DNA of 57,970 nt from Caldifarciminota bacterium (GCA_025060695.1 JANXBH010000011.1:1-57970); one strand, 5' to 3'. Positions 9,947 through 44,611 are shown, counted from the stretch's first letter. Numbers and translations: made by a program. Notes: generated by a model not told the origin, from the letters alone.

Positions 9947-11047
9947 TTGATATTTTTGAATCTATTAGGAAATAATGATTTAGGATATAGAGGATTTATT
10001 GAATTTTTTTCAAATGCTTATGCTAATTCTAATATTGAACTTAACTTATATAGTAGAGTTTATTTTGGTAGAAAAGATTTTCCATTCATTTCTCCTTCGC
10101 ATTTTTCATTCTTTTGGGAAGGCTTTTATTATTATAGAAAGTTTTTTATTTATTATATTCACAATTGTGAAAATGGTATTGATAAGAACGCATTTGATAA
10201 TAGGAGGTGGGATTTTTTAGGTTTAGGTTTTGACTATAAGAATCTAAAACTAATTTTAGGTCATGTAGTTTCACCATTTAGAACATCATATGATAATCAA
10301 GATTATGGACTCATTTTCAATATAAAAGGACAGTATGGTGTTATTTTGTTTAACTATTTTTTAATTTTGGATAGAAAAAATAGCCTTAGAAACTTATTTT
10401 CCTTAAAATTTAACTATCCGATTTATATTGGATATGAAAGGAGAATAGATATGTATTCTATGAAAAAGCAAGATGAGAGAAATTTGTACTTTTTAGGTTT
10501 TGGCTTGACGGACAATTTTAAGGTATTTAGATTTTATAATCTTTTTAGGCTAAACCATTTGTCTTATAATGTTCTTTATATATCGGAGTTTGGCTATAGT
10601 TTTTTAAAGTTCAATATTGATGGTTTGTCCGCAGATAATAGATGGACACCGGGCTCTGTAGTATTTAAGGTATTTTTAGGTAAGGGCTTTAGTCTCAGTT
10701 GGTTTTCAAAGCACTTTATTGATTTAAACTATTTAAAAGATAGAGTTTATGAATTTGATTATACTAATAAATTTCCATATGCACTTTCAATTGGTTATAA
10801 AGATGAAAATTTTGGTTTTTTCTATAGTATTTTCTCTCGCTCAGCAAAAACTTTAAGTGTTTATTTAAGTTTTAAATACTTTTCATATACTCTCTATTTT
10901 GATGAAAATTTTAACTTTAGCGATGAATACTATATTTACTATGGGTATAGTTTTTCAAAAGGTGTGAAATTAGTTTTAGGTATTTTTAAAAATTACTATC
11001 TGGAATTTAATAATATCTTTTTGGGAATTATGTTATCTAATCAATGA
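9947..11047 (+). CDS. Predicted outer-membrane beta-barrel protein
   Basis: 366 residues, very rich in Tyr and Phe, with alternating hydrophobic and polar strands through to the end, as expected of an outer-membrane barrel. The start is TTG, directly after the TAG of the previous gene and in the same frame. There is no in-frame ATG until the middle of the protein (MYSMKKQ). The N-terminus MIFLNLLGNNDLGYRGF has only a few hydrophobic residues, so a normal signal peptide is missing. It may be re-initiated, or joined to the upstream ORF by readthrough. The 3' end overlaps the convergent M23 gene by 15 nt. Confidence 0.65.
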   Translation: MIFLNLLGNNDLGYRGFIEFFSNAYANSNIELNLYSRVYFGRKDFPFISPSHFSFFWEGFYYYRKFFIYYIHNCENGIDKNAFDNRRWDFLGLGFDYKNLKLILGHVVSPFRTSYDNQDYGLIFNIKGQYGVILFNYFLILDRKNSLRNLFSLKFNYPIYIGYERRIDMYSMKKQDERNLYFLGFGLTDNFKVFRFYNLFRLNHLSYNVLYISEFGYSFLKFNIDGLSADNRWTPGSVVFKVFLGKGFSLSWFSKHFIDLNYLKDRVYEFDYTNKFPYALSIGYKDENFGFFYSIFSRSAKTLSVYLSFKYFSYTLYFDENFNFSDEYYIYYGYSFSKGVKLVLGIFKNYYLEFNNIFLGIMLSNQ

Positions 11048-11734
11048 AAGTGGGTTAATTGGTTTATTGTTTTTCCATACTTCATAGTGTAAATGTGGTC
11101 CCGTTGAGTGTCCTGATGAACCTGAGTATCCTATAACTTGTCCCCTCTTTACACTGTCTCCTTGTGATACTATTACTCTTGAAAGGTGTGCATATAAGGT
11201 TTTATAATCTTTATTATGAGAAATTACTATGTGAAGTCCAAATTTTGCATTGCTATCAATTTTTTCTACTTTTCCAACAGCAGTTGAAAAGACGAATGAA
11301 TTTCTATTTAGCGCAATATCTACACCAATATGATTTTCACTATGTTCTTGTGTAATTACACCACTTGCGGGCAAACCTATTGGAGTATCAACCTGCTCTA
11401 ATAGGTCGGGACTATAGTAATTATAATTTTGCATTGTATCTTTCACTTCACTATCAAGACCAAGTGCTAAATATAGAGTGTTTTTTATTCTTCTAAATTC
11501 TTCAATTTCTTTTTCTAATTTTTTAAACTCTGCAAGTTTTTTCTTTAATTCATAGTTTTCTTTAATTAGCATAATATCGTTAAAATTTAAAAATAGAAAG
11601 AAAACATTCATAATGAACACTATAACTACGATAAAAATCAGAGCTTTAATAACATTCAACTTAAACTTAGAAATTGTATATCTTTTAAGATTACCTCTAT
11701 TATCCAAAATTATAACTTCAATGAATTTTTTCAT
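11033..11734 (-). CDS. Membrane-anchored M23-family peptidase (LytM domain)
   Basis: 233 residues: a short cytoplasmic N-terminus, one transmembrane helix (about 29-50), a coiled-coil stretch (about 55-85), then a C-terminal M23 domain. Zinc ligands are visible in HIGVDIA and GPHLHYEV. M23 peptidases cut peptide cross-links of peptidoglycan; with the N-terminal coil it could be an endopeptidase or a scaffold in cell-wall remodelling. The start overlaps the folE stop as ATGA, so it is coupled to folE. Confidence 0.92.
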
Positions 11735-12306
11735 TCTATTAGCTTGAAGTTCCTTTGAAGGTGAATCATAAGTTCCATTCTTGTTCTTTGGTCGTCTCTA
11801 AAGGCACCTAAAAGAGAACTTGTAATCATTTTACTTCTTGGCTTTTTTACTCCTCGCATGACTGAGCATAAGTGTATTGCTTCTACTATGACAGCTACAC
11901 CTTTTGGATTTAACTTCTCCCATAGAATTTTTGCAATTTCATTAGTCAATCTTTCTTGAACTTGAAGTCTTCTTGTATATGCCTCTACTATTCTTGGTAT
12001 TTTTGAAAGTCCGATAATTTTACCATTTGGAATATATGCAACGTGTGCAACTCCAAAAAATGGAATAAGATGATGTTCACAAAGGCTATAAAAATCAATA
12101 TCTTTTACTACTACCATTTCATCGTAGTTTTCATTAAATATAGCATTATTTATAATTTTATCTGCGTCCATATTATAGCCATATAGTATTTCAGTTAATA
12201 GCATTTTTGAAACTCTGTATGGGGTTTTAATCAGACCCTCCCTATTAGGGTCTTCTCCTATCTCTTCTAATATTGTCCTAACTGCATCTTCTATTTTTTT
12301 ATTCAT
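11731..12306 (-). CDS. folE: GTP cyclohydrolase I
   Basis: 191 residues. The enzyme converts GTP to dihydroneopterin triphosphate, the first step of folate and pterin synthesis. Zinc and active-site residues are seen in [10 protein letters not shown] and HLCSVMRGV; the C-terminal [10 protein letters not shown] is typical. It leads a two-gene operon with the M23 peptidase. The start is supported by a -10-like box ending 9 nt upstream. Confidence 0.98.
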
Positions 12307-12312
12307 AAAAAT

Positions 12313-12324
12313 AAAATTTTAAGG
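12313..12324 (-). promoter_or_regulatory. -10-like box for folE
   Basis: Minus strand CCTTAAAATTTT; the TAAAAT core ends 9 nt before the folE ATG, with no Shine-Dalgarno between. Confidence 0.6.
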
Positions 12325-12361
12325 TTTAGAGTTCTTTGTTTAAATCTAATAACATCCACTT

Positions 12362-12694
12362 TTAAAATCTCAAGTCTTTCGGGTTTATTCCATGTTTTGA
12401 TAATGTAAATACAGGTTCAAGCTGTTTCCCAACCCTTCCTAAATATTGTTGTCATGCTTTTTGCAATTGTATCTTGCCTTATTTTTTCTTCCTTTTTCTG
12501 TTTCCATTCTAATAGAAGATTTTTGACCTTTTCTCCCAGCAATGCTTCGTATTGTTTTCTAAATTCTTCAGTTTTTGAGTATATTCTATTCTAATTGCTT
12601 TTAGTTCTTCTTTCCATTGGTTAAACATTCTTGTTGCTTTCCGCTTTACTTTTTGTTCTAAATAATTACAAGCAATGTAAATATTAAAGCCCAT
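12362..12694 (-). pseudogene. Decayed gene related to archaeal Holliday-junction resolvase-like endonucleases
   Basis: The 431-bp gap between folE and the TPR gene holds pieces of one protein in different frames. In order on the minus strand: a broken hydrophobic start (LIFTLLVII in another frame), KRKATRMFNQWKEELKAIR, then, after a slip at an A-run near 12573, TEEFRKQYEALLGEKV through KIRQDTIAKSMTTIF, then, after another slip near 12438, GRVGKQLEPVF and GINPKDLRF, and then a stop at 12362-12364. The order (membrane helix, coil, IxxS, GKVxEQLxP, NPKDLRF) fits the Endonuc_Holl (PF10107-like) family, as I recall it. The catalytic C-terminal part is missing, so this is a dead remnant. Confidence 0.7.
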
Positions 12695-12721
12695 TCAAGT
12701 ATTTAATCCTCCCTTTTAAAC

Positions 12722-12732
12722 CTTAAAATTTT
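12722..12732 (+). promoter_or_regulatory. -10-like box for TPR operon
   Basis: CTTAAAATTTT with TAAAAT at 12724-12729, ending 8 nt before the ATG at 12738. No Shine-Dalgarno is present. Confidence 0.6.
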
Positions 12733-12737
12733 AAACT

Positions 12738-13844
12738 ATGAAATATTTCTCTATATTTTTACTATTTTCAGTTGCATATGCAAGTGTAAGTGCAACATCT
12801 ACTAAAATATATGTTCAGCAAGAAAATTGGAATAAGGCTTTAGAAAATGCTAATAAGTGGAAAAGTGAACAACCAAATAGTGCTGAACCATATTTATGGC
12901 TTGGTTATATCTATACCAGATTAAATAACTATAAAACTGCTACACTTAACTTTTTAGAAGGTTATGAGAAAAATCCAAAGCTTTACGTAAAAAAAGAATT
13001 TGAGAAAAAGCTTTCTATTGGTGGACAGAACCTTTTAAATTACGAGCAATTTTTGATTGTTTTAACTAATGGAGATATTCAATTTTACAATGAGGGTGAT
13101 TATGACAGTGCTATTAAAGTTTCAGAATTTATAATAAAATTAGACTCATTGAATTCAACTGCATATCAAATTGCTTCAAGTTCATATCAGATAAAGGCAC
13201 AAAAAGAAACCGACGAAAGTAAAAAGAAAGAATTACTAAATAAATCAAGGTTGCTATTAGAAATATATAATCAAAAAAATCCAAATGACGCAAAGGCAAA
13301 ATACTACTTGGCACTATTTTATTACGATGATGCACAGAATTACTTATTAAGAAATGATACTATAAACTATAAGCAAAGTATAAATAAGGCAAAGGACCTA
13401 TTGCTATCATCTGTAAAACTTGATACTACCATGCCTGAGATATACTACGAACTTGCTGAAATTTACTTTGAACTTGACGATTACAAAAATGCAGTAATAA
13501 ACTACGAAAAATCTATTAAGTATGACAGTTCAAGATACGAAACTTTTTATAATCTCTCTATATCATATATGAAATTGAAGGAATACGATAATGCACTAAA
13601 AGCAATGTTAAAAGCCGATAAATTAAAACCAAATGACTATCAAATACTATACTTTATTTCACTACTATATTTTGAATTAAAGAACTATAATGAAGCATTA
13701 AAATATGTAGATAGTGCAATAAGTGTGAAAGAAACTTCATCTGTATACGAATTAAAGGCTAATATACTAAAGGCAATGAAGAGAAACGAAGATGCACTAA
13801 AAGCATTTGAAAAGGCGGAAAGTTTGAAGAAAAAAGGATTATAG
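12738..13844 (+). CDS. Secreted TPR-repeat protein
   Basis: 368 residues with a classical signal peptide (MKYFSIFLLFSVAYASVSA) followed by tandem tetratricopeptide repeats through most of the chain, for example EPYLWLGYIYTRLNNYKTA, EIYYELAEIYFELDDYKNA and QILYFISLLYFELKNYNEA. TPR arrays are protein-binding scaffolds, here periplasmic or surface-exposed. Nothing in the sequence names a partner. The stop overlaps the PASTA gene start by one base (TAGTG), so they are likely co-translated. Confidence 0.85.
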   Translation: MKYFSIFLLFSVAYASVSATSTKIYVQQENWNKALENANKWKSEQPNSAEPYLWLGYIYTRLNNYKTATLNFLEGYEKNPKLYVKKEFEKKLSIGGQNLLNYEQFLIVLTNGDIQFYNEGDYDSAIKVSEFIIKLDSLNSTAYQIASSSYQIKAQKETDESKKKELLNKSRLLLEIYNQKNPNDAKAKYYLALFYYDDAQNYLLRNDTINYKQSINKAKDLLLSSVKLDTTMPEIYYELAEIYFELDDYKNAVINYEKSIKYDSSRYETFYNLSISYMKLKEYDNALKAMLKADKLKPNDYQILYFISLLYFELKNYNEALKYVDSAISVKETSSVYELKANILKAMKRNEDALKAFEKAESLKKKGL

Positions 13845-14368
13845 TGAATAACTTTTTAGAAAGGTTATTTTATTATGTTTTAGGTTTAATTGTAGTTGGT
13901 TTTATACTCTTATCTATTTTAAATTACTTGATAATGCCAATAGTAGTAAGGAAAGGAGATGAAGTGTTAGTTCCAAACGTGGTAGGTATACATATAGATA
14001 GTGCAAGTAAAATTTTAAAAAAGTATAGTCTTATTCCTATAGTAGATACTATTATTCCATCAAAGGTTTATCCACAGGAGTATGTAATTGAGCAAAATCC
14101 ATATCCTAAATCTAAGGTTAAAAAAAATAGAAAGGTTTTTTTAGTAGTAAGTAAGGGAGTTGAAATGATTGAAGTTCCAGATGTTGTTGGAATGAAAAGG
14201 GATGAAGCGGAGGATATAATAAAAGGTCTTGGTTTTGAAGTAGAAATTGAATATAGTGAGGTTAAAGGTGTTGAAAATGACATAATATTAGAAACTTTTC
14301 CAAGTCCAAAAACAAAACTTCCAAAAGGTTCAAAAATTAAGATTATTGTAAGTAGGGAAACTTTATGA
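13844..14368 (+). CDS. Membrane-anchored PASTA-domain protein
   Basis: 174 residues with one N-terminal transmembrane helix (about 10-35) and two PASTA domains, beginning near VPNVVGIHIDSASKIL and VPDVVGMKRDEAEDII. PASTA domains bind peptidoglycan fragments or lipid II-like ligands and usually sit on Ser/Thr kinases or penicillin-binding proteins; here they stand alone on a membrane anchor. The start is GTG overlapping the TPR gene stop. The end overlaps the sua5 start as ATGA. Confidence 0.9.
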   Translation: MNNFLERLFYYVLGLIVVGFILLSILNYLIMPIVVRKGDEVLVPNVVGIHIDSASKILKKYSLIPIVDTIIPSKVYPQEYVIEQNPYPKSKVKKNRKVFLVVSKGVEMIEVPDVVGMKRDEAEDIIKGLGFEVEIEYSEVKGVENDIILETFPSPKTKLPKGSKIKIIVSRETL

Positions 14369-15345
14369 TATTGTCTGCAAATGAAGAAAATATTTTACTT
14401 GCGGCTGAAATTATAAAAAAAGGTGGAATAGTAGCATTTCCTACTGAAACAGTATATGGACTTGGTGCAAATGCTTTAAATAAGGATGCAGTAATAAAGA
14501 TTTTTGAAGTAAAACAAAGACCATATTTTGACCCTCTGATTGTTCATATAGATAATATCTCTTGGCTTGAAAAATTAACACTTAATTACAAAAATGAAAT
14601 AGTTGAAAAGTTAATAAATATCTTTTGGCCAGGACCGCTAACTATTGTATTTAAAAAATCTGAAATTGTTCCATATATTACAACAGGTGGTTTAGAAACG
14701 GTTGCAATTAGAATGCCTAAAAATAACATTGCTTTAAAACTTATTAAATATTCAGGTGTTCCAATTTCCGCACCAAGTGCAAATAAATTTGGATATATAA
14801 GTCCTACTAATGCAAGTATGGTGTATGAACAATTAGGAAATGAAGTTGATATTATTTTAGATGGTGGAAGGACTGAAATTGGTATTGAATCTACTATAGT
14901 GTATGTAGAAAATAATGATGTTTATGTTCTAAGATTAGGTGCTATTAGTATTGAGGAAATAGAAAGTGTGATAGGAAATAGTGTAGAGATATCTGAAAAA
15001 GTTAAAAGTCCTGGGCAATTTAAATTTCACTATGCTCCTTATACTAAAGTTGTTATTTTTGATAATATAGAAGACGTTATATCTTGTATAAATGACTATA
15101 AAAGTGCGGTTGTTATAACTGATAAAAAAGAAAGTCCAGATTTACCGGATAATGTGATTTATGACTATTTTAGTGAAAGTGGAGATTTAAGAGAAATTGC
15201 AAAAAACCTTTTTGAAAAGCTTTACTATTACGATAAAATGGGTATTGATGTAATCTTCGTAAAAAGTATAAAGGAAGAAGGTATTGGAAGAGCTATTATG
15301 GATAGACTGAAAAAAGCAAGTAGAAGAGGTGCCTTAAAATTATAA
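14365..15345 (+). CDS. L-threonylcarbamoyladenylate synthase (Sua5 type)
   Basis: 326 residues, with an N-terminal YrdC domain (FPTETVYGLGANA, PISAPSANKFGYISPT) and a C-terminal Sua5 domain after a linker (SPGQFKFHYAP). The enzyme makes threonylcarbamoyl-AMP from Thr, bicarbonate and ATP for the t6A37 tRNA modification. TsaD, which uses this product, is encoded at 35061 in the same window. The start overlaps the PASTA gene as ATGA. Confidence 0.96.
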   Translation: MILSANEENILLAAEIIKKGGIVAFPTETVYGLGANALNKDAVIKIFEVKQRPYFDPLIVHIDNISWLEKLTLNYKNEIVEKLINIFWPGPLTIVFKKSEIVPYITTGGLETVAIRMPKNNIALKLIKYSGVPISAPSANKFGYISPTNASMVYEQLGNEVDIILDGGRTEIGIESTIVYVENNDVYVLRLGAISIEEIESVIGNSVEISEKVKSPGQFKFHYAPYTKVVIFDNIEDVISCINDYKSAVVITDKKESPDLPDNVIYDYFSESGDLREIAKNLFEKLYYYDKMGIDVIFVKSIKEEGIGRAIMDRLKKASRRGALKL

Positions 15346-15348
15346 ACT

Positions 15349-15936
15349 ATGATTTATCTAATCATAAATTTAACTGTAGATGATATATTTCAAAAGACCT
15401 ATAAAAGTTGGGAAAATGTAAAAGACTACTATGCTATTTTTTATTCTTGGACTGCAAAGGACGATAAGGTAGAACTAAAGGAATATGAACAAAAATATTT
15501 ACAACCGGGATATTTATATCTTAAAGTAATTAAAGGAGGTTCTGGTGAGGCATGCTATGACCCAAATACGAACAAAGCAAAAGGGAGAAGGTTTGGAATT
15601 ACTCTAACACTTGACCCTGAAAAAGACGGGAGAATTCAATCTATTAGAGGGGATAGGATTTATCATGCAGGTATGTTAAAAACTATTGAAAGAATAAGGA
15701 CATACTCTGAGCCAACACTAATAGGCGAAAAGACGATAGATAATATAAAAGTATATGAAATAAGTGCAAAAATCGACCCAAGTAAAAATTTTTCCGCAGA
15801 AAGGGAGATTATTTTTATAAGACAGGACAATTTTCTACCCTATGGATTTATTCAATATAAGTCAAATAGAAAAGTAAAAGAAGTATATTGGAGAAATTTG
15901 AAAATAAATAATGGATACACTAAGGTATGCTTTTAA
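15349..15936 (+). CDS. Putative exported LolA-like/DUF1571-like protein
   Basis: 195 residues. The sequence begins MIYLIIN and then runs directly into TVDDIFQKTYKSWENVKDYY, which resembles the mature start of LolA-fold proteins (D-I-hydrophobic-x-K...Y/W...I/V-K-D-Y). Later strands (GEKTIDNIKVYEISAK, PYGFIQYKSNRK) fit the same fold. LolA proteins carry lipoproteins across the periplasm, but the family match is weak. An in-frame stop lies 4 nt upstream of the ATG, so a longer signal peptide is impossible. The end overlaps the DUF192 start by 10 nt. Confidence 0.6.
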   Translation: MIYLIINLTVDDIFQKTYKSWENVKDYYAIFYSWTAKDDKVELKEYEQKYLQPGYLYLKVIKGGSGEACYDPNTNKAKGRRFGITLTLDPEKDGRIQSIRGDRIYHAGMLKTIERIRTYSEPTLIGEKTIDNIKVYEISAKIDPSKNFSAEREIIFIRQDNFLPYGFIQYKSNRKVKEVYWRNLKINNGYTKVCF

Positions 15937-16313
15937 TATTTTTTCAGCTTGAAAAAGTTGAGATAAATAATAAAGTGTTATATGTAGAAATTGCTGATAG
16001 CCCATTTGAAAGAGAAAGAGGGCTTATGTTTAGAACTTTTTTACCTGATAGTATCGGTATGTTGTTTATATTCGATAGTGCTGGAATTTATCCATTTTGG
16101 ATGAAGAATACATATATTCCTCTATCTATTGCATTTATAGACGAAGATTTTAAGATTATTGATATCTTGGACTTAGAGCCATTGGATGAAAGACCTGTAT
16201 TTCCTATTAAAAAGTTCAAATATGCAATTGAGGTAAATAAAAACTGGTTTAAAAGGAAGAATATAAAAGTTGGAGATAGGGTAAATTTTAAATTTTTACG
16301 AACTTCCCGTTGA
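15927..16313 (+). CDS. DUF192 family protein
   Basis: 128 residues with the DUF192 pattern: IADSPFERERGLMFR, then GMLFIFDSAGIYPFWMKNTYIPLSIAFID. Members are usually secreted or periplasmic and have no firm function. The N-terminus is only MLLIFFQ before the domain starts, and an in-frame TAA two codons upstream rules out a longer signal. The 3' end overlaps the convergent subtilase by 26 nt. Confidence 0.9.
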   Translation: MLLIFFQLEKVEINNKVLYVEIADSPFERERGLMFRTFLPDSIGMLFIFDSAGIYPFWMKNTYIPLSIAFIDEDFKIIDILDLEPLDERPVFPIKKFKYAIEVNKNWFKRKNIKVGDRVNFKFLRTSR

Positions 16314-18546
16314 TTACTTGATTTTCTAAAATCACACTTACTATGTATAATCCACTTTGCCAATCTTTAATATCAATCTTTATTTCAAAGCCTTTTAATT
16401 CTATATCCCTTTCAAATACAATTTTACCTGATAAAGTCATGATTCTCAACTTTGCTATATTATCTATATACCCATCTATCTTTATTTTTAAGAATTCTCT
16501 TGCAGGATTAGGATATATTCTTAGTGAAATAGGACTTTTAATAGGTTCATAATTTACTAATTTATATGCATCTATAAGACCATATCCTACAAAGTTATTT
16601 GGTTTTGAATAGTTTGGTATTTCTTTTGCGGTTTTTAATATCACATCCCTTAGTTTTCTTGCAGACCAGTTTGTGTGAGCTTGTAGTGCTAAGGCACATA
16701 TTCCTGAAACCATTGCGGTGGATAAACTTGTTCCGTATGCATAGTGAAACCCGTTATAATTACTAATATAGTAAGGACCAAATAGCGCGGAAATATCAGG
16801 TTTAATTCTTCCATCAGATGTTGGACCGAAAGAGGAATTTTTTGAGGGTGTTAGATCGTAGTTTATACCACCGACTGCAATAATACTGTCCGCATCAGCA
16901 GGAGCAAAAAGTGAAGTGTCAGGACTATTTGGAAGAGTATTTCTCTGAACATTTCCCATAGCAGTTATTATAAGTGCGTTATAGTTTATTACTTTGCTTG
17001 CAAATTTTGATGATATTGCTGTTTTACCATCTAAATCTTTCTTGCTATACCAGTCAATATAACCAAGAGAACTAGATATAATCCTTGCACCATTTCTAAC
17101 AGCCCACTCAGCCGCATTTACCCAAAAGTCTTCTTCTACAATACTTTCAAAATAATTACTATCCGTTGTAATAGTTTTTTCGGTTTTTGCAAGGATTAGT
17201 TTAACACCGGGACTTACACCAATTAGAGAACCTTCGGAAATTCCTGCAATTACTGAAAGCATGGAAGTTCCATGATATTGACCTCCTAAGTTTGGATACT
17301 CAGGATAAACATTACTATCACCTCTTCTAACAATTGCTATTAGAGTATCATTGTATATTCTAAGAACTCTTGCAAAATCAAAATTATAGAAATTACCATT
17401 ATAAAAAAAACCATCTTTAAATTGAGCTAAAACTTTTAAATTTTTGCAATCTGGTCTATCAGAAAAAATTTCATATAAGATAAAATCGTTATCAAGAAAA
17501 ACTGAGTCATTTCTAACATATGAAATCTTACCATTACAATAACTTGGATATCTTCCAATAAATCTAAATACCTTATACCAGCTTCCATTTTCTTTGTATA
17601 TCAAAAAAATGCTATCATTTAAACTAACAACCATACTATCTTTACTAAAATAATGTATTCCTCCAAATTTCCCAAAAAACAAAGTATTATCGTAGATTTT
17701 TATACTGCTTGAATTTCCGTATGCAAAGTAAATACTATCATTTACAAGAATATCGTATTGTATAATTTCATCTATAGTGAGTGTGTTTGTATCACCACTA
17801 CTTAGATTTATATAACTTAAAGCGTAATTTTTTCCATTTATCCAAGACTTGTAAAATACAACTATACTATCTACCTTTCTTCTAATTTTCGGCTCTAAAA
17901 GGAACCTTGAAGAAATTGAACTAATTTCGCTAACCTCTCCATTTTTTATATTAGATAAATAAATTCTCCATTTCGGATTGTTAGTTAGTTCATTTTCAAA
18001 TGAAAGTGAAATTACAAACAAGCTATCCAAAAAGTCGTAATCTGAGATATATATTATTTGATTTGAAGGTATTGGTAATTTTACTAAGTTGCTATTTTTT
18101 ACATTAAATAAAAACATACTATCTCCCGAGTTAAAGTCCCAAGATTTTATAATCCTTCTATCTCTCCATAAATGTGAAATTGTTGGGTTTGTAGAGTCAA
18201 AACCTGTATCCAAGATTGCAAGCTTAACATCTAAACCAATTATACCTTGTTCGTGAACTTTTATGATATTGTGAAATTCTAAGTGTTCTCTACTTTTTCC
18301 ATAGTCGTATTTAAAGGAACTTTTAAAGTATTTTCCTCTTAATACTGGTTGAAACTTCCTATTTTTTAAAGCTTCCTCTTTAAGTAAATATCCCGGATAA
18401 TACGCAGATGCAATGTTTAAAATATAACTCTTAGTTAGGACTATTCCCCCATTTAGTCTTAAAAAGTATGGTTCAACTTGATAAGTCCAAACTTTTAAAA
18501 TTTCATAGTCATTTTTTACACTTAGCATGAGTACAGTAAAATTCAT
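16288..18546 (-). CDS. S8 subtilisin-like protease with central insertion and C-terminal sorting-type domain
   Basis: 752 residues. The catalytic triad is D113 (LAILDTGFDS), H425 (GQYHGTSML) and S607 (AYGTSLSTAMVSG), with an oxyanion Asn at 532. Asp and His are 312 residues apart, far more than in ordinary subtilases; residues about 143-400 are strand-rich and propeller-like. The C-terminus (from about 673: YPNPAREFLKIKI, then LSGKIVFERDI and QSGLYIVSVI) matches type IX secretion sorting domains. The N-terminus MNFTVLMLS has no full signal peptide; an in-frame stop lies 6 bases upstream. The start is supported by a -10-like box ending 7 nt before it. Confidence 0.93.
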   Translation of the reverse strand: MNFTVLMLSVKNDYEILKVWTYQVEPYFLRLNGGIVLTKSYILNIASAYYPGYLLKEEALKNRKFQPVLRGKYFKSSFKYDYGKSREHLEFHNIIKVHEQGIIGLDVKLAILDTGFDSTNPTISHLWRDRRIIKSWDFNSGDSMFLFNVKNSNLVKLPIPSNQIIYISDYDFLDSLFVISLSFENELTNNPKWRIYLSNIKNGEVSEISSISSRFLLEPKIRRKVDSIVVFYKSWINGKNYALSYINLSSGDTNTLTIDEIIQYDILVNDSIYFAYGNSSSIKIYDNTLFFGKFGGIHYFSKDSMVVSLNDSIFLIYKENGSWYKVFRFIGRYPSYCNGKISYVRNDSVFLDNDFILYEIFSDRPDCKNLKVLAQFKDGFFYNGNFYNFDFARVLRIYNDTLIAIVRRGDSNVYPEYPNLGGQYHGTSMLSVIAGISEGSLIGVSPGVKLILAKTEKTITTDSNYFESIVEEDFWVNAAEWAVRNGARIISSSLGYIDWYSKKDLDGKTAISSKFASKVINYNALIITAMGNVQRNTLPNSPDTSLFAPADADSIIAVGGINYDLTPSKNSSFGPTSDGRIKPDISALFGPYYISNYNGFHYAYGTSLSTAMVSGICALALQAHTNWSARKLRDVILKTAKEIPNYSKPNNFVGYGLIDAYKLVNYEPIKSPISLRIYPNPAREFLKIKIDGYIDNIAKLRIMTLSGKIVFERDIELKGFEIKIDIKDWQSGLYIVSVILENQVINGKFVKI

Positions 18547-18551: not shown

Positions 18552-18562
18552 AAATTTTAAGG
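18552..18562 (-). promoter_or_regulatory. -10-like box for subtilase
   Basis: Minus strand CCTTAAAATTT; the TAAAAT core ends 7 nt before the ATG. It shares a 43-bp divergent gap with the lpd promoter. Confidence 0.6.
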
Positions 18563-36035: not shown

Positions 36036-36864
36036 ATGCATTAGTAATAGGTTCGTCCGTAAACAGGAGTTTATATCTTATACCTGATTTCAAGAAACTT
36101 TCCTTTATTTCATTTAACCAGCTATTTAATGCAACCTTATAGTCTTCAATATAAAATAGTGTATTAAGTAAAACAGATGTCTTTGTTTCAGGTTCAACGA
36201 ATCTAAAATTCCCCCTATCCTCTATTTCTCTTTCCTGTGGAGATAAAATTTGAAATACTACTACATCAAAACCACTATTATTTATTGCTCTTAAAATTCT
36301 AATAGTAGATGTTTTATCCGCTATAAGGTCAGATATGAGTATAACTAAACCTTTTCTCTTTAGTTTACTTGCTGAAACTAAAAGAGGATTTTCAATATAA
36401 GTTTTTCCTGAAGGCTTTAAATTACTTAGTGTTCTTAATACTTTATATAAGTGTATTTTTGAGGAAGAAGGATTTAGAACTACTTCTAATTTATCTGAGA
36501 ATGCAATGAAACCAAAGGCATCTCTTTGCAAATAGAGAATATAACTTAAAATTGCACAAAGATTTTGAGCGAATATAAACTTATTAGGTTTTCCAAAGTC
36601 CATAGATTTAGAAATATCAAGTAATAAATATGCCCTTAGATTAGTTTCTTCGTAAAATTTTTTAATAAATAGCTTATCTTTTCTTGCAAGAACTTTCCAG
36701 TCTATAAATTTAAAGTCATCTCCCTTCGTATATTCTCTATGTTCTGCAAACTCTACTGAAAAACCTTGGAATATACTCTTGTGTTTTCCTGAAAGATATC
36801 CTTCTACCACTTTTTTTGCTCTTAAGTATAAGTTTTCAATTTTTAGTAAATCTTCAATTTTCAC
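36019..36864 (-). CDS. DUF58 / VWA-like domain protein
   Basis: 281 residues. The DUF58 signature is clear: SVEFAEHREYTKGDDFKFIDW, followed by the VWA-like metal site LDISKSMDFG. Such proteins usually work with MoxR-type AAA ATPases; none is adjacent here. The start is GTG overlapping the previous stop (TAGTG). It is the last gene of the BNR - small protein - DUF58 operon. Confidence 0.93.
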   Translation of the reverse strand: MKIEDLLKIENLYLRAKKVVEGYLSGKHKSIFQGFSVEFAEHREYTKGDDFKFIDWKVLARKDKLFIKKFYEETNLRAYLLLDISKSMDFGKPNKFIFAQNLCAILSYILYLQRDAFGFIAFSDKLEVVLNPSSSKIHLYKVLRTLSNLKPSGKTYIENPLLVSASKLKRKGLVILISDLIADKTSTIRILRAINNSGFDVVVFQILSPQEREIEDRGNFRFVEPETKTSVLLNTLFYIEDYKVALNSWLNEIKESFLKSGIRYKLLFTDEPITNAFKVLS

Positions 36865-37151
36865 TATTCTAATTTTACACTGTGAATTTTACCTATGCAA
36901 TTTCCACTAATTGTTAAAGGTACGCTCCTTGGTTTGCTTCTTGTAGGAATGAGTTTGGCATCTTTTAGCTCTACTGATAATTCACCTTTCGGATTTTCTA
37001 TATTTAAGTATATCCTATAAATATCGTAATTTTTTCTGAAAGTAATTTCAAGCTCACAACTTTCTGCAAAATCATATTCTACGATAAGTTTCTCCCTATC
37101 TTTTAGGTCATATATATCAACTTGATAAATAAAGTTTATTAAAAGTAGCAT
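36864..37151 (-). CDS. Small predicted exported protein of unknown function
   Basis: 95 residues, strand-rich. The N-terminus MLLLINFIYQ is a very short hydrophobic run followed at once by polar strands. An in-frame stop five codons upstream excludes a longer signal peptide. GGAGG on the minus strand lies before the ATG, and the gene begins 1 nt after the BNR gene. I do not recognise the family. Its position between two coupled genes supports it being real. Confidence 0.65.
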   Translation of the reverse strand: MLLLINFIYQVDIYDLKDREKLIVEYDFAESCELEITFRKNYDIYRIYLNIENPKGELSVELKDAKLIPTRSKPRSVPLTISGNCIGKIHSVKLE

Positions 37152-37152: not shown

Positions 37153-38535
37153 TCAATAGCCTCCTATTTTGTAAGTTTTTTCATTTATTTTAACTATTAA
37201 AACTTCAGGTTTTTTTAATTCGTAAATTATATTGTGTCCTTTTGTTGTTCTTGTATTTTTTTGAAAAATTAGACTTCCATCAATTTTGTAAATTTTTACA
37301 CTTATGTTTTCTGTCCCATCTGCAAGATATATTATTTTCTTATTATTCAAGAATAATTTAGAAATTTCTTTACTTTCATAAGTTTTTACAATTTGAGAAA
37401 TTTTTGCATAGGTAGAATAAACATGGAAATAACCTGTTCTGTTATCAGACCAGGCAACATATACATTTTGGCTGTCCGCATATGCTTCAATATAGTGCCC
37501 GGGCCAGCAATAGTAGTCCACATTATCAACACCTCCACACTCATTCTCATCTACAAATTCAAAAGTAGTATCACTTACTCTAATAGGATTACTCCAGTTA
37601 TTTCCAAAGTCGCTTGAATATGAATGATATAATGCCCACTTTTTATTAGTAATTCTGTAAAAATAAAACAAATGTGCATTTCCATATGGATCAAATGTGA
37701 TTGCAGGCATGTAATATATTGAATTATCACTATTAGGTGAAACCATAAAACTATCCCACTCGATTAAGTTATATCTAGATATGTAAACTCTCCAGTCATT
37801 TCTACTTCCAGTTCTTGTATGCATGTATGCATTTAAAACTCTTCCTGCAAATGCGTCCGCATGAATACCTTGTGGATATGGGTTAGGTCCGATTACTGCA
37901 TCCATAACAGCCACTTTTTGTGGTGTGCTCCAGTTTAAACAATTTGTAGAACTTGAAACTACAATACCTATTCCTGAAGGGTCATAATCCCAAAATATAG
38001 CCCAAAACTTTTGCCTATCAGTTGTAATGATGGGAACTGCTCCATTGGTAATATTTACAAGTGTCCAAGTATTTCCACCATCAAATGAACAGGCAACTGT
38101 AATGATATTACTTACATTATAAGATGTGAATATAATTGCTATTGTATCCTTTTTAACAGCCATCCAAGGATGATCAAGAAAACCTTGAGCTATAACTTTA
38201 TTAGGTATGAACGAGTTTCCAAAATCATCAGTTCTTGTATATTCAATGGAATTCCAGTTTAGCCATACTAAGTGGATTATACCGTTATATTCCTTTGCAA
38301 CAGGATCGCAACAGTCATCATTTCCGAATACATTATTTTTATCAATATTCCAATTATTCGTTGTATCAATACTTACATCGTACCAATTTCCTCCACTACC
38401 TATCCAGCTTGAAAGAGACTTGAATTTCGTAATCGTAATACTAATTTCTGCTTGCTCATCAGCTCCTACTTTATCATCTATCTTTATATTCGGTCTAAAT
38501 GGAAAATCAGAAATAAGCACATAGTTTAAAAACAT
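37153..38535 (-). CDS. BNR/sialidase-like beta-propeller protein with C-terminal sorting-type domain
   Basis: 460 residues. Asp-box-like turns SFDGGNTWT and SSDFGNNWSNP, and repeated strands, point to a sialidase-type propeller, but no Arg triad of true sialidases can be confirmed. The last 75 residues (VKIYKIDGSLIFQK, ELKKPEVLIVKI) resemble a type IX secretion C-terminal domain. The N-terminus MFLNYVLISDFPF is too short for a normal signal peptide although the -10-like box fixes the start 7 nt downstream. Likely a surface or secreted protein. Confidence 0.8.
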   Translation of the reverse strand: MFLNYVLISDFPFRPNIKIDDKVGADEQAEISITITKFKSLSSWIGSGGNWYDVSIDTTNNWNIDKNNVFGNDDCCDPVAKEYNGIIHLVWLNWNSIEYTRTDDFGNSFIPNKVIAQGFLDHPWMAVKKDTIAIIFTSYNVSNIITVACSFDGGNTWTLVNITNGAVPIITTDRQKFWAIFWDYDPSGIGIVVSSSTNCLNWSTPQKVAVMDAVIGPNPYPQGIHADAFAGRVLNAYMHTRTGSRNDWRVYISRYNLIEWDSFMVSPNSDNSIYYMPAITFDPYGNAHLFYFYRITNKKWALYHSYSSDFGNNWSNPIRVSDTTFEFVDENECGGVDNVDYYCWPGHYIEAYADSQNVYVAWSDNRTGYFHVYSTYAKISQIVKTYESKEISKLFLNNKKIIYLADGTENISVKIYKIDGSLIFQKNTRTTKGHNIIYELKKPEVLIVKINEKTYKIGGY

Positions 38536-38540
38536 AAAAT

Positions 38541-38551
38541 AAATTTTAAAG
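38541..38551 (-). promoter_or_regulatory. -10-like box for BNR operon
   Basis: Minus strand CTTTAAAATTT, core ending 7 nt before the ATG at 38535, within the 10-bp gap from purS plus its last codons. Confidence 0.55.
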
Positions 38552-38806
38552 CCTATTTAATTCTTCAATTTCTATTTCAAACTTTTCAACTACAGGGTTA
38601 GCAAAAAGTGTTGCAAGTTGTTTATTTATAGTTTCTAAAATTTCCTCCTTGCTGTTTGATTTTATATTAAATACTATCAACTTTCCAATTCTAACATTTT
38701 CTACATTTATATTCTTTGACTTTATAATATCCTCAATTACTTTTCCCTGAGGGTCAAATAGACCGTCCTTTAGTAAAACCAATACTTTAACTTTGTATTC
38801 TTTCAT
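38546..38806 (-). CDS. purS: Phosphoribosylformylglycinamidine synthase subunit PurS
   Basis: 86 residues. YKVKVLVLLKDGLFDPQGKVIEDII and the C-terminal NPVVEKFEIEI are typical of PurS, the small subunit that links PurQ and PurL in purine synthesis. purQ and purL are not nearby, so it is uncoupled from its partners. It overlaps the end of the aconitase gene by 20 nt and is probably co-translated with it. Confidence 0.93.
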   Translation of the reverse strand: MKEYKVKVLVLLKDGLFDPQGKVIEDIIKSKNINVENVRIGKLIVFNIKSNSKEEILETINKQLATLFANPVVEKFEIEIEELNRL

Positions 38807-41414
38807 TTTTTAAGAACTTTCTTAAAACGTATTGCAATATTCCTCCATTTCTATAGTATTCAACCTCTACATTGCTGTCCAACCTGCAAATTACTTCAAA
38901 TTCTACTTTCCTATTATCATCTCTTATCGCTTCTACTTTTAATATTTTTCTTGGTTTTAGTCCTTCACTAATACCCTTTATGTTATATATTTCTCTACCA
39001 GTAAGACCAAGACTTTTATAACTTTCACCTTCTATGAACTGAAGTGGTAGTATACCCATACCTACTAAATTGCTTCTATGGATTCTTTCAAAACTTTCTG
39101 CTATAACCGCTTTTATTCCAAGTAAATATGGTCCCTTTGCAGCCCAATCCCTTGAAGAACCACTTCCATACTCCTTTCCTGCAAGGACAATTAGTGGTAT
39201 CCCATTTTCCCTATACTTTAAACTTGCTGAGTATATTGTCATTTCTTCATTGTCTAAAAGATAAACTGTCCACCAACCCTCTTTATCTACTAATAAGTTT
39301 CTCAGTCTTACATTAGCAAACGTCCCTCTTACCATTACTTCATGATTTCCTCTTCTTGAACCATAAGAATTGAAATCTTTGATTTCTACATTCTTTGATA
39401 TTAAATATTCTCCTGCAGGTGATTTTGGATGAATTGAACCAGCAGGTGAAATATGGTCGGTTGTAATGGAATCTCCAAGCATTACTAAAACCCTTGCATT
39501 TAATATATCCTTTTCCTTTTCTATTTCTAACTTCATATCATCAAAATATGGTGCTCTTTTAATATAAGTTGATTTTTCATCCCACTTATAAAGTTCTGAC
39601 TTTTCTACTTCAAGCTTTTTCCATCTTTCATCTCCTTCAAATATATTTTTATAGTTTTCTATAAAATCCTCTGCACTTAAAACTCTATTTACAAGACTTG
39701 AAATCTCATCTAAAGAGGGCCAAATATCCCTTAAATATACAGGTTCTCCATTACTATCGTAATCTAATGGCTCATTTAAAATATCTATGTCCATTTTACC
39801 TACAATTGCATATACTACTACAAGTAATGGAGACATAAGAAAGTTCATTTTTACAAGTGGATGGATTCTTGCCTCAAAGTTTCTATTTCCTGAGAGAACA
39901 GACGCTACATTTAAGTTGTTTTGAACTATGGCGTCTGAAATCTTAGGAGGTAAACTTCCTGAGTTTCCTATACAAGTTGTGCATCCATATCCAACTACAT
40001 GAAAGCCCAGAGCTTCTAAATATGGTAATAAATTTGCTTTTTGTAAATATTTAGTTACAACTCTTGAGCCAGGTGCAAGTGATGTCTTTACCCAAGGTTT
40101 TTTACTCAGTCCTCTTTCTATAGCCTTTTTTGCTACTAATCCTGCTCCAATCATAACACTTGGATTGGAAGTATTAGTGCAACTTGTAATTGCGGATATT
40201 ACTACATAATTGTCCTTCAGTTCAAATTCTATATTTCCATAATTGATTTTTGCACTTTTTCCATTTGTACTAATTACTTCTTTTATCTTTTTTAATGGTA
40301 TTCTATCATGTGGTCTTCTTGGTCCTGCAACACTTGGCTCTATTATGCTTAAGTCTAGTTCAATAATATCAGTATATACTATACTATCTTCATGCTCTCT
40401 CCAAAGCAGATTTTCCTTTACATATCTTTCCACTATATTAACTAATTCTTCGCTTCTCCCAGTATTTCTTAAATAATCTATAGTTTGATTGTCTATTGGA
40501 AAATATGTGATTGTGCAACCAAACTCAGGAGACATATTGGAAATAGTTGCCCTATCAGGAACTGTTAAATATTCTAATCCAGGTCCAAATACTTCAACGA
40601 ATTTATCAACAACCCCGTATTTTCTGAGTATTTGTGCTATAGTTAAGACTAAATCTGTTGCTGTTGCGCCTTCTTTTAGTTTTCCAGTAAGTTTTAAGCC
40701 TATAACTTCAGGTACCCTCATATATAGTGGTTGTCCAAGCATTACCGCCTCCGCTTCAATACCCCCTACCCCCCATCCTATAATTCCTAAACCATTTACC
40801 ATAGGAGTATGCGAATCAGTACCAATAAGGGTATCAGGATATAGAAAGTCGTCTTTTTGCCATATTACTTTTGAAAGGTATTCAAGGTTTACCTGATGAC
40901 ATATTCCAAGACCTGGAGGAACTACTCTAAAGTTCTTAAAAGCACCCTGTGCCCACTTTAAAAACTTATATCTCTCTTCATTTTGTTTATATTCTAAATC
41001 TACATTTTTCTCAAATGCATAAACTGTGCCAAATGACTCTACTATTACTGAATGGTCAATTACTAAGTCTATCGGAATTACAGGATTTATTATGCTTGGA
41101 CTTTTGTTAAATTTTACGCATGCATCTCTCATACTTGCTAAATCTACAATTGCAGGAACACCTGTAAAATCCTGCATTAATATTCTTGCAGGCATATATG
41201 GTATTTCTTTGTCGGGCAAATTCTTTGCACTATAATTTAAAATGGTATTTAAATGTTCTTCATTTACTAAAAATCCATCAAAATTTCTTATTATATTTTC
41301 AAGTAAAATTCTGATGGAAAAAGGAAATTTTTCTACATTCTTAACCCTTTTTATATCGTAGAATTTATACTTTTTGTTGTTTATTTCTATTTCACTTATG
41401 TAATTTTCTTTCAT
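38787..41414 (-). CDS. acnA: Aconitate hydratase
   Basis: 875 residues from ATG 41414. The Fe-S cysteines lie in AITSCTNTSNPSVMIGAG and YGCTTCIGNSG; the C-terminal swivel domain with GDSITTDHISPAGSI and GKEYGSGSSRDWAAKGP is present. It converts citrate to isocitrate in the TCA cycle. A start at 41444 would add ten residues, but the box CTTTAAACTTTT ends at the right distance from 41414 only. It is divergent from pckA, which shares the promoter region. Confidence 0.97.
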   Translation of the reverse strand: MKENYISEIEINNKKYKFYDIKRVKNVEKFPFSIRILLENIIRNFDGFLVNEEHLNTILNYSAKNLPDKEIPYMPARILMQDFTGVPAIVDLASMRDACVKFNKSPSIINPVIPIDLVIDHSVIVESFGTVYAFEKNVDLEYKQNEERYKFLKWAQGAFKNFRVVPPGLGICHQVNLEYLSKVIWQKDDFLYPDTLIGTDSHTPMVNGLGIIGWGVGGIEAEAVMLGQPLYMRVPEVIGLKLTGKLKEGATATDLVLTIAQILRKYGVVDKFVEVFGPGLEYLTVPDRATISNMSPEFGCTITYFPIDNQTIDYLRNTGRSEELVNIVERYVKENLLWREHEDSIVYTDIIELDLSIIEPSVAGPRRPHDRIPLKKIKEVISTNGKSAKINYGNIEFELKDNYVVISAITSCTNTSNPSVMIGAGLVAKKAIERGLSKKPWVKTSLAPGSRVVTKYLQKANLLPYLEALGFHVVGYGCTTCIGNSGSLPPKISDAIVQNNLNVASVLSGNRNFEARIHPLVKMNFLMSPLLVVVYAIVGKMDIDILNEPLDYDSNGEPVYLRDIWPSLDEISSLVNRVLSAEDFIENYKNIFEGDERWKKLEVEKSELYKWDEKSTYIKRAPYFDDMKLEIEKEKDILNARVLVMLGDSITTDHISPAGSIHPKSPAGEYLISKNVEIKDFNSYGSRRGNHEVMVRGTFANVRLRNLLVDKEGWWTVYLLDNEEMTIYSASLKYRENGIPLIVLAGKEYGSGSSRDWAAKGPYLLGIKAVIAESFERIHRSNLVGMGILPLQFIEGESYKSLGLTGREIYNIKGISEGLKPRKILKVEAIRDDNRKVEFEVICRLDSNVEVEYYRNGGILQYVLRKFLKNERIQS

Positions 41415-41418
41415 AATG

Positions 41419-41430
41419 AAAAGTTTAAAG
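41419..41430 (-). promoter_or_regulatory. -10-like box for aconitase, deciding its start
   Basis: Minus strand CTTTAAACTTTT; the core TAAACT ends 7 nt before ATG 41414, the spacing seen at other leaderless-type starts. Confidence 0.5.
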
Positions 41431-41444
41431 TTTGAATAGTCCAT

Positions 41445-41453
41445 TAAAATTTC
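41445..41453 (+). promoter_or_regulatory. -10-like box for pckA
   Basis: TAAAAT at 41445-41450, 9 nt before the pckA ATG. No Shine-Dalgarno is seen. Confidence 0.55.
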
Positions 41454-41459
41454 AAAATC

Positions 41460-42977
41460 ATGAAGAGAAATTTAAGCGTTGCAGAGTTGTATGAAGAGAG
41501 TATAAAGAAGAATTTAGCTTTGCTTTCAGTGGATGGAGCTCTTGTGGTAGATACAAGACCATATACTGGAAGATCTCCAAAAGATAAATTTATCGTTTAT
41601 GAGGAGAATTTAGAGAATGAGGTATGGTGGGGTGAAGTAAATCAAAAGTTTAGTAAGGAAAGCTTTAATAAACTTCTTAATGAAGTAAAAAACTACTTAC
41701 TTTCAAATGAATATTACATTGAAGATTTATATGTAGGTGCGGATGAGAAATATAGACTAAGAATTAGACTAATAACTGAAAGTCCATGGCATGCACTATT
41801 TGCAAAAAATATGTTTATAAGAACAAAAAATATTAACTACGAAGAATTTAAACCTGACTTAGTAATATACCATGTACCATTTTTCAAAGCAAATCCAAAA
41901 ATACACAATACTAATAGCGAAGTATTCATTATTTTAAATTTAAACGAAAGAATTATACTTATTGGAGGGACTTTATATGCAGGTGAAATTAAAAAGTCCG
42001 TTTTTACTTTTTTAAATTATTACTATCCAAAACAAGGTGTTTTATCTATGCATTGTGGGGCAAATTTAGGGAAGAATAACGATAGTGCGTTATTTTTTGG
42101 ACTTTCTGGCACTGGTAAAACTTCACTTTCAACTGACGAGAAAAGACCATTAATTGGAGATGATGAACATGGTTGGTCGGATGACGGAATATTTAACTTT
42201 GAAGGTGGATGCTACGCAAAAGTAATTAGAATATCGAAGGATAAAGAACCATCAATATATAAAGCATCGCTAAGATTTGGGACAATATTGGAAAATGTGG
42301 TTTTAAGAGAGGATAGGAGTATTAATTTTGATAGCGATGAGAAAACTGAAAATACGCGTTCAAGTTATCCTATTGAGTTTTTAGAAAATATAAAACTTGA
42401 TGGAAAAGGTCCTCATCCAAAGAATATATTTTTTCTTTCGGCCGATGCTTTTGGAATACTTCCACCAATAGCGAAACTTACAAAGGAACAAGCTCTATTT
42501 TATTTTCTCTCAGGTTATACTGCTAAACTTGCAGGGACTGAAAGAGGTATAAAAGAGCCTACTGCTACGTTTTCCGCTTGTTTTGGAGCACCTTTTTTAG
42601 TATTAAAACCTATTGAATATGCAAAAAAACTCTTAGAAAAAATTGAAAAATATAGACCAAATATTTGGCTTTTAAATACAGGTTGGTTTGGAGGTCCATA
42701 CGGTATTGGAAAAAGAATAGATATTAACTATACAAGGAAAATGATAGATTGGGCAATAAGTAGTGCAGAAGCAGAGTATTACGAATTTCCTATATTTAAC
42801 TTACTTGTTCCTAAAAAAATACATGAAATACCTGAGTGGATATTTTATCCACAAGATAGTTGGGGAGATAAAGATAAATATTTTGAGAGTGCAAGGAAAC
42901 TTGCGGGCATGTTTATAGAAAATATAAAGAAGTTTGAAGTAAGTAAAGAGATTATTTTAGCAGGTCCAAAAATATGA
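41460..42977 (+). CDS. pckA: Phosphoenolpyruvate carboxykinase (ATP)
   Basis: 505 residues. The kinase P-loop GLSGTGKTSLSTD, the metal site IGDDEHGWSDDG, and RSPKDKF near the N-terminus identify the ATP-type enzyme, which converts oxaloacetate to PEP for gluconeogenesis. It is divergent from aconitase, so the two central-carbon genes share a 45-bp control region. It overlaps gmk by 4 nt (ATGA). Confidence 0.97.
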   Translation: MKRNLSVAELYEESIKKNLALLSVDGALVVDTRPYTGRSPKDKFIVYEENLENEVWWGEVNQKFSKESFNKLLNEVKNYLLSNEYYIEDLYVGADEKYRLRIRLITESPWHALFAKNMFIRTKNINYEEFKPDLVIYHVPFFKANPKIHNTNSEVFIILNLNERIILIGGTLYAGEIKKSVFTFLNYYYPKQGVLSMHCGANLGKNNDSALFFGLSGTGKTSLSTDEKRPLIGDDEHGWSDDGIFNFEGGCYAKVIRISKDKEPSIYKASLRFGTILENVVLREDRSINFDSDEKTENTRSSYPIEFLENIKLDGKGPHPKNIFFLSADAFGILPPIAKLTKEQALFYFLSGYTAKLAGTERGIKEPTATFSACFGAPFLVLKPIEYAKKLLEKIEKYRPNIWLLNTGWFGGPYGIGKRIDINYTRKMIDWAISSAEAEYYEFPIFNLLVPKKIHEIPEWIFYPQDSWGDKDKYFESARKLAGMFIENIKKFEVSKEIILAGPKI

Positions 42978-43561
42978 AATATCAAAATTTTATAATTATA
43001 ATTTCAGGTCCATCAGGAAGTGGTAAAACTACAATTTGTAAAGAGCTTTTAAAATTAGATAGAAGTCTGTTTTATTCTGTATCAGTTACTACAAGACTAA
43101 AAAGGAAAAATGAGATAGATGGATTGGATTATATTTTCATTAGTGAGGATAAATTTTTAGAAATGGTAAAGAGTGGTGAGTTTTTGGAGTGGGCGGAGAT
43201 TTATGGAAAATTCTATGGGACTTTAAAAAGACCAATATTAGAGCAATTGAGCAAAAATAAGGATATTATTATGGATATAGATGTTCAAGGAAAAAGAAAT
43301 ATAGAGAGAAATTTTTCAGGAAGAGTAGTAAGTATTTTTTTAATACCTCCAAGTAAACAGGTTTTAATTGAAAGGTTAAGAAGAAGGGCGGACTTAAGTG
43401 AAGAGGAATTAGAAAAGAGAATAGCTTTATTAGATGTAGAGATGAACTATAGGTGGGAGTATGATTATTGGGTAGTAAATGATAATTTAGATGAAACTAT
43501 TTTAAATGTGAAAAAAATTATAGATGCTGAAAGGATGAGAGGAAGGTTTACCCTACTTTGA
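42974..43561 (+). CDS. gmk: Guanylate kinase
   Basis: 195 residues. P-loop IISGPSGSGKTTI, then SVTTRLKRKNEIDGLDYIFI and FLEWAEIYGKFYGT are typical. The enzyme makes GDP from GMP. It is translationally coupled to pckA by ATGA. The 3' end overlaps the convergent M23 gene by 9 nt. Confidence 0.97.
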   Translation: MKYQNFIIIISGPSGSGKTTICKELLKLDRSLFYSVSVTTRLKRKNEIDGLDYIFISEDKFLEMVKSGEFLEWAEIYGKFYGTLKRPILEQLSKNKDIIMDIDVQGKRNIERNFSGRVVSIFLIPPSKQVLIERLRRRADLSEEELEKRIALLDVEMNYRWEYDYWVVNDNLDETILNVKKIIDAERMRGRFTLL

Positions 43562-44611
43562 TATTAGACAGCAAATACTTTCTAATAAATCCTTATTTTT
43601 CAAGAATATTTCTTTCTTTTCTTCCTTAACTGGTTCGCTTGGAGGGTTTTCAATTTTTAGTGGATTTACTAATTTTCCATTTTTTCTCATTTCTAAATGT
43701 AAGTGTGGACCTGTTGAAAGACCTGTGGAGCCTACATTGCCAATATATTCACCTGCAGATACTCTTTGCCCTACTTTTACCGCTATTTTTGATAAATGTG
43801 CATATCTTGTTTCATATCCATTTGGATGTTTGATAATTACAAGTTTTCCATAACCTCCATTCCAGCCTGCAAATGTAACTATTCCAGGACCCATTGAAAA
43901 TACGGGAGTCCCATAAGGTGCAGCATAATCTACACCATGATGCATTCTATATACTCTTAATATTGGATGGAACCTATAACCCATGAGAGAAGTAATTTTG
44001 TAAACTTTTAGAGGTGATTTTAAAAATAGTTTATTTATTGCTTTTCCATATTCATCAAAATACTTTCCTTCAAACCATATAGCTTTTTTCTTTCCAAGTT
44101 TTTTGCTATGATATAGTGCATAGTATATATTTCCATATCCTATTAGTTTTCCATTATAGTAAAGTTTTTCCACTACTATAGCAAAACTATCTCCATTTTC
44201 TGTTTCTACGGAAAAGTCAATATCCCATGCAAATATATCTACGAACTTTTCTACAAGCTCAGGAAGTTCGTTCAATTTTAAAACTGCGCTATATAAATTA
44301 TCTTCTACACTACCAGAGATGGTTTCTAACTTTTTTTGTATAAAGCCTCTTTTAAATACAACCTTATCAACACTGTCTTTTAGTTCTAAGTATAACTTAT
44401 CAAGACCTTTTTTTATGCTAATGGCTATAGTGCTATCGTTGTATATTCTAATAGTAACACTATCTCCTAATTTAAATGTCCTATCGTCAAAGTAGTTTTT
44501 TGCAGTTTTGACAATAATATAGGACTTTTCTTGACCTATATTTGATTTTAAAAGTATGTTCCATAAGGGTTGATTTATAGAACTTTGATATATAAAAAGA
44601 AGACTATTCAT
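43553..44611 (-). CDS. M23-family peptidase (OapA/NlpD-like)
   Basis: 352 residues. The C-terminal half is an M23 domain with MGYRFHPILRVYRMHHGVDYAAPYGTP in parts and GPHLHLEMRKNG, so the zinc ligands are intact. The N-terminal half (about 10-200) resembles the opacity-associated domain of cell-wall endopeptidases such as MepM. The start [11 protein letters not shown] offers only a short hydrophobic run, and an in-frame stop lies four codons upstream, although the protein should act outside the membrane. It overlaps glyQ by 8 nt. Confidence 0.92.
   Translation of the reverse strand: MNSLLFIYQSSINQPLWNILLKSNIGQEKSYIIVKTAKNYFDDRTFKLGDSVTIRIYNDSTIAISIKKGLDKLYLELKDSVDKVVFKRGFIQKKLETISGSVEDNLYSAVLKLNELPELVEKFVDIFAWDIDFSVETENGDSFAIVVEKLYYNGKLIGYGNIYYALYHSKKLGKKKAIWFEGKYFDEYGKAINKLFLKSPLKVYKITSLMGYRFHPILRVYRMHHGVDYAAPYGTPVFSMGPGIVTFAGWNGGYGKLVIIKHPNGYETRYAHLSKIAVKVGQRVSAGEYIGNVGSTGLSTGPHLHLEMRKNGKLVNPLKIENPPSEPVKEEKKEIFLKNKDLLESICCLISK

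Follow-up and report, generated by a model that had tools for sequence, protein, structure and literature searches.

Under the Q-rule described for Bacteroidetes, Gln stands directly behind the signal, at a frequency that averages 71% across these bacteria, and the same work reports that the rule does not extend to the entire FCB group (PMC5837995, PMC10653852). In Parcubacteria, neither ffh nor 4.5S RNA has been detected in the entire lineage (PMC4508563), and SRP loss has proved survivable in Escherichia coli suppressors (PMC7844537). We found no relevant report in the open-access literature on SRP loss in WOR-3 or on export signals as short as those described below.

The stretch of DNA analyzed here (57,970 nucleotides; JANXBH010000011.1:1-57970, hereafter the window) is part of a 1.5-Mb genome with 30% GC (G000), which BamA matches place within candidate division WOR-3, in a class to which Ca. 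Hydrothermus pacificus belongs, as probably does Ca. Caldipriscus. A sequence-only reading had pointed to seven predicted exported proteins of this window that start with a very short hydrophobic N-terminus. All seven are present in the sequence as described, and they are listed here together with their neighboring promoter-like elements and two ordinary signals.

8378..8437, + strand: ordinary signal MKKLIIVSLILIVADLAYSQ, for comparison
9947..9970, + strand: probable mini-signal MIFLNLLG of a putative barrel protein (9947-11047), the TTG start of which abuts the stop of 8378; in-frame stop 0 codons upstream
12738..12794, + strand: ordinary signal MKYFSIFLLFSVAYASVSA, for comparison
15335-15341, + strand: -10 box TAAAATT, located about 14 nt 5' of the ATG of the LolA-like gene
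15349..15369, + strand: mini-signal MIYLIIN of the LolA-like protein (15349-15936); in-frame stop one codon upstream
15927..15947, + strand: mini-signal MLLIFFQ of the DUF192 protein (15927-16313); in-frame stop 1-2 codons upstream
18520..18546, - strand: mini-signal MNFTVLMLS of a subtilase with Por_Secre_tail (16288-18546), from Pfam and sequence; in-frame stop 1 codon upstream
18553..18559, - strand: -10-like box TAAAATT, 13 nt 5' of the subtilase ATG, a leaderless-type start
37122..37151, - strand: mini-signal MLLLINFIYQ of a 95-aa protein (36864-37151) with no Pfam match; in-frame stop 4-5 codons upstream
38509..38535, - strand: mini-signal MFLNYVLIS of a BNR-like protein (37153-38535), from sequence; in-frame stop about 8 codons upstream
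38542..38548, - strand: -10-like box TAAAATT, 13 nt 5' of the BNR-like start
44585..44611, - strand: mini-signal MNSLLFIYQ of an M23 peptidase (43553-44611), from ortholog comparison; in-frame stop 3-4 codons upstream

The close upstream stops noted in that reading were thus confirmed, as were the ordinary signals on proteins 8378, 12738, and 31763 (ctpA). Its family assignments held for DUF192 (105 bits, with the Pfam model beginning at residue 19 of the protein), M23 (134 bits), and the subtilase with its Por_Secre_tail (42 bits), while its LolA-like call (22 bits) and its BNR call (25 bits) lay under the Pfam cut-off; a sorting-type domain had also been claimed for BNR protein 37153, and Pfam found none there. 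Proteins 36864 and 9947 matched no Pfam family; the N-terminus of the latter is probably a mini-signal, and its export is putative. Neither a lipobox Cys nor a twin arginine occurs in any of the seven mini-signals, and no Lys/Arg precedes the hydrophobic core in any of them or in the BamA proteins of families f1 and f2. Orthologs of the M23 peptidase start with MHNFLLIYN in the same genus and MIHLLSSYLMVA in the same family, and their conserved mature part begins with SSIN.PLW immediately behind the short signal. The BNR-like protein starts with MFLNYVLISDFPFRPNIKI, and a protein of an order-level relative, similar to it by eye, starts with MILLLLTDYPFMPNVKI. Elsewhere in the window (313-2667), there is an ORF with helicase motifs that by eye resembles a Cas3-type protein.

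It is BamA that decides the question, since its structure model places the short start directly before the first POTRA strand. The protein of the source genome (L052:1751-4003, TTG start) begins with MLIIILGQ-FIGKIEVQGLKY, and in its AlphaFold model (mean pLDDT 81) residues 1-6 are predicted to be disordered and POTRA strand 1 to comprise residues 9-16. Orthologs from the same family and order start with MWLFLTAQ, MILLLIGQ, MFVLFLAQ, and MILFLLVQ, and those from elsewhere in the class with MLIAFLVS, MYLLLLFS, and MTVWLLLLIQ, or with 12-13 residues, e.g., MFKILLLIFISQ of Ca. Hydrothermus pacificus. Some other WOR-3 families also have BamA signals of 8-9 residues (MILSIIFA, MLGLIFLFA, MIWILALFP), others have normal 20-residue signals, e.g., MKKVLLITGILIFATSLYSQ, and BamA of the Desulfobacterales controls carries ordinary ones. 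This patchy distribution across WOR-3 families indicates that the short BamA signal is a lineage trait independent of GC content and, because BamA is short across the class and in some other WOR-3 families while others retain normal signals, such N-termini are most likely real, reduced Sec signals.

The mini-signals are, very probably, genuine Sec signals cut down to the h-region and a merged cleavage site, Sec dependence and cleavage being deduced from the sequences. They have no n-region with Lys/Arg, leaving the free N-terminal amine as the sole positive charge; the hydrophobic core spans 5-8 residues, i.e., about two helical turns, and the cleavage site would be fused into its end, often as a small residue followed by Gln or Asn. 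SecA would pass such signals to an ordinary SecYEG, in the lateral gate of which the two-turn hydrophobic helix would lie with its N-terminus on the cytoplasmic side, and SPase I would cut those having a small residue at -1, whereas bulky-ended ones (FFQ, IYQ) might have their cut at another position or not be cleaved at all. Ordinary signals that lost the n-region and had the core shortened are the most likely origin of the mini-signals. Predicted full-length, Tat, and charged lipoprotein signals coexist with them in the same cell. One WOR-3 branch appears to export most of its envelope proteins, among them BamA, which is essential for building the outer membrane, via uncharged signals of 7-9 residues.

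Only one feature of the export machinery is clearly odd: SRP was not detected in this class. The Ffh M domain was detected in 0 of 40 class genomes (G000-G039), 25 of which have a completeness of 90% or more and low contamination, SRP-type GTPases (Ffh, FtsY) gave only weak generic matches in the class, and 4.5S RNA was found neither in the class genomes nor, with lax filters, in the family; in control genomes, these searches were positive in 14/14, 14/14, and 11/14. Among the other genomes of the phylum, 38/60 have Ffh and 38/60 have 4.5S RNA, and several other WOR-3 families also appear to be without SRP. On the SecY tree, a branch (99/99) sets the SRP-less class apart, and at least three changes in SRP presence or absence are required overall. 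The sequence-only reading proposed that the mini-signals could use a dedicated or modified route. Such a route might involve, e.g., a SecY tolerant of weak signals or an adaptation to SRP loss, and targeting must differ where SRP is found in none of 40 genomes. We consider this route unlikely. The part of that proposal concerning the signals stood, as they are real and very short and sit on exported proteins, but the translocon sequences gave no sign of a dedicated or visibly modified system: SecY aligns end to end with a solved bacterial SecY (403 bits), so that an odd SecY was rejected; SecA is full length; and SPase I and LspA are represented by one ordinary protein each, judging by family match. 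Furthermore, short signals and SRP absence do not track each other across the phylum, as families f14, f25, and f34 combine short BamA signals with SRP and f12 and f17 normal signals with its absence (signal status of f7, f10, f14, and f34 was judged from BamA alone), and a strict coupling of the two traits was accordingly rejected. The order-level genome G010, in which BamA and SecY each occur as two genes of differing affinity and contamination is 7%, is probably a mixed bin.

The end of the signal was compared with the reading that several of these N-termini terminate in an aromatic residue plus Gln, which proved to be only part of the pattern and not a general rule. Gln was modestly enriched as the first polar residue behind the hydrophobic run (19% versus 8% in the null, p = 0.02), and the residue before it in 25 mini-signals was Ser in 9, Leu in 4, Ala in 3, Phe, Tyr, and Gly in 2 each, and another one in 3. 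Ala, Gly, or Ser thus precedes Gln in 14/25 mini-signals and in most BamA orthologs, a bulky residue in FFQ and IYQ, and about half of all mini-signals have no small residue ahead of the first polar one. The Q-rule calls for Gln at +1 in no less than about half of the SPI substrates, and with 19% observed here the rule was rejected as a complete explanation. An acidic mature start that offsets the missing n-region was considered and found too weak an effect (net charge of residues 8-22, -0.23 versus +0.29, p = 0.04). In seven pairs from G000 and its same-genus relative G001, signals were 49% identical and mature starts 71%, with hydrophobicity retained; a signal less conserved than the mature start, yet hydrophobic, is as expected for signals. 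A few other mini-signals of G000 do have a lipobox Cys (e.g., MTILLISC), nearly all of its lipoprotein signals retain Lys/Arg, and Tat-like signals are intact elsewhere in the genome. The lipoprotein signals are shortened too, their median Cys position being 14 in G000 versus 18-20.5 in the more distant genomes G052 and G017, as would be expected if signals were short because the membrane is thin; this explanation is very improbable and was rejected, as the lengths of uncharged runs in multi-pass proteins overlap, with medians of 20 in G000 versus 22 in both G017 and G052.

The observation proved to be right and larger than first stated, extending genome-wide and into relatives. ORFs were called in 634 kb of G000 (42% of the genome) and in small samples of seven other genomes, namely G001, G002 (52% GC) and G003 from the same family, the order-level relative G008 (54% GC), and the more distant G017, G018, and G052. 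An N-terminus was counted if residues 2-9 held a 5-residue core with a mean hydropathy of at least 2.3 that was itself uncharged, had no charged residue ahead of it, and was followed by a drop, provided that there was no membrane helix; internal Met positions served as the null (61/1974 pass in G000, 3.1%). In G000, 78/620 N-termini consisted of Met and 5-8 hydrophobic residues without Lys/Arg, the absence of which is a selection rule of these counts (p = 3e-25), and a strict version retained 56/620 versus 1.4% of internal Met positions (p = 3e-27). The hydrophobic run ends mostly at positions 7-11, giving 5-9 residues, compared with a minimum of about 7 for the h-region of a Sec/SPase I signal, and mini-signals are the commonest type of non-lipoprotein signal in this genome. 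A tabulation of N-termini in relatives had been proposed by the sequence-only reading, and the excess was significant in G001 (17/116, p = 5e-8), G002 (14/102, p = 4e-7), and G008 (16/156, p = 1e-4), weak and below significance in G003 (p = 0.14), and smaller in the three distant samples. Charged canonical signals showed the opposite trend, occurring in 31/1112 ORFs of the five close genomes versus 36/329 of the three distant ones, both figures including some false positives.

Part of the flagged N-termini sit on cytosolic proteins (null 3%), and the mini-signal proteins scanned with Pfam were hand-picked from the flagged list with evident cytosolic ones omitted, so that the scan shows what the class contains and not an unbiased rate. 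Among them were Omp85/POTRA (BamA), LptD, LolA, a TonB plug (receptor), YceI, and a lytic transglycosylase (SLT); M28+PDZ, M14, S8, and S15 peptidases, PPIC rotamase, and a TlpA-like thioredoxin; and a penicillin-binding transpeptidase, PhoD, PorV, OmpA, SpoIID, and Por_Secre_tail. Nine of ten random control proteins belonged to cytosolic families and the tenth had no match. The PhoD-type phosphatase (L055:4182-5498, - strand) carries the mini-signal MLYFITFF, with its N-terminal domain from residue 11; certain other bacteria export PhoD by the Tat route. A PorV-like protein (L067:8406-10298, - strand) and the Por_Secre_tail protein at window 16288-18546 are a hint of type IX secretion in WOR-3. 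AT-rich genomes do favor Leu, Ile, and Phe, and about 3% of internal Met positions look alike, but that the short hydrophobic start is a chance product of AT-rich codons with no use in export is hardly credible: the excess over the internal-Met null is four-fold, or six-fold in the strict set, the pattern is present in relatives at 52-54% GC, it is concentrated on envelope proteins needing export, e.g., BamA and LptD, and orthologs elsewhere have normal signals in the same place. A composition artifact was therefore rejected.

As to the starts themselves, a TAAAATT box lies 12-15 nt 5' of the start codon in about one-quarter of the sampled genes, which suggests that leaderless transcripts are frequent. 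At positions -15 to -12, it precedes 21 of 69 mini-signal genes and, with equal placement, 123 of 533 others, and a -10 box at this distance implies an mRNA that is leaderless or nearly so, with nothing upstream to translate; further mini-signal genes start behind a clear Shine-Dalgarno site (e.g., AAGGAGG) at normal spacing, as other genes do. Several mini-signal proteins carry a Pfam domain that starts at residue 9-12 (CarboxypepD_reg, YceI, PhoD_N, PGA_cap, CBM_4_9), e.g., YceI at residue 10 (model position 1), PhoD_N at 11 (position 2), and PGA_cap at 12 (position 1). Upstream stops are not specially close in mini-signal genes (medians of 3 versus 4 codons, p = 0.39), and this notion was dropped. 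Although start annotation is often wrong in uncultured genomes and BamA has a TTG start, there is next to no chance that the true proteins are longer and gain normal signals through a nonstandard upstream start codon or readthrough of a stop, and we rejected hidden starts because the in-frame stops lie only 0-8 codons upstream, BamA of G002 and G003 has space for only about 12 residues from the stop to POTRA, the same start is marked by a -10 box at -13 or a Shine-Dalgarno site, several domains start at residue 9-12, and the pattern holds at 52-54% GC.

Taken together, we lean toward the view that a diderm, non-CPR class has lost SRP and exports most of its envelope proteins by signals of 7-9 residues without an n-region, which would put the minimal Sec signal far below the textbook one and make co-translational SRP targeting dispensable class-wide. 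If so, Sec export uses a positive n-region and a longer core by habit and not by need; signal predictors that learned from textbook signals would probably overlook a large share of the proteins exported in this lineage; and the mini-signals offer a natural test system for the real needs of SecA, SecY, and SPase I. With SRP missing and signals short, the phylum would be suited to asking how SRP-free membrane targeting works, and a cultured strain, sy37 (NBRC 116057, genome AP038914; PMC12285271), should render it testable.

Among known systems, SRP loss in Parcubacteria is alike in that ffh and 4.5S RNA are undetected lineage-wide, but Parcubacteria belong to the CPR and have very small genomes, whereas the WOR-3 class is diderm, has genomes of 1.2-2.6 Mb, and FtsY was not found in it either. 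The Bacteroidetes Q-rule is matched by the enrichment of Gln directly behind the signal and by the presence of Por_Secre_tail and PorV proteins, though not by the frequency of Gln, about 19% in mini-signals. Compared with the classical Sec/SPase I signal, the mini-signals are shorter (7-9 residues versus about 18-25), with a core of 5-8 residues and no Lys/Arg n-region, yet they are likewise N-terminal hydrophobic segments on envelope proteins, in a cell that has SecA, SecY, and SPase I, and a small residue often precedes the polar one.
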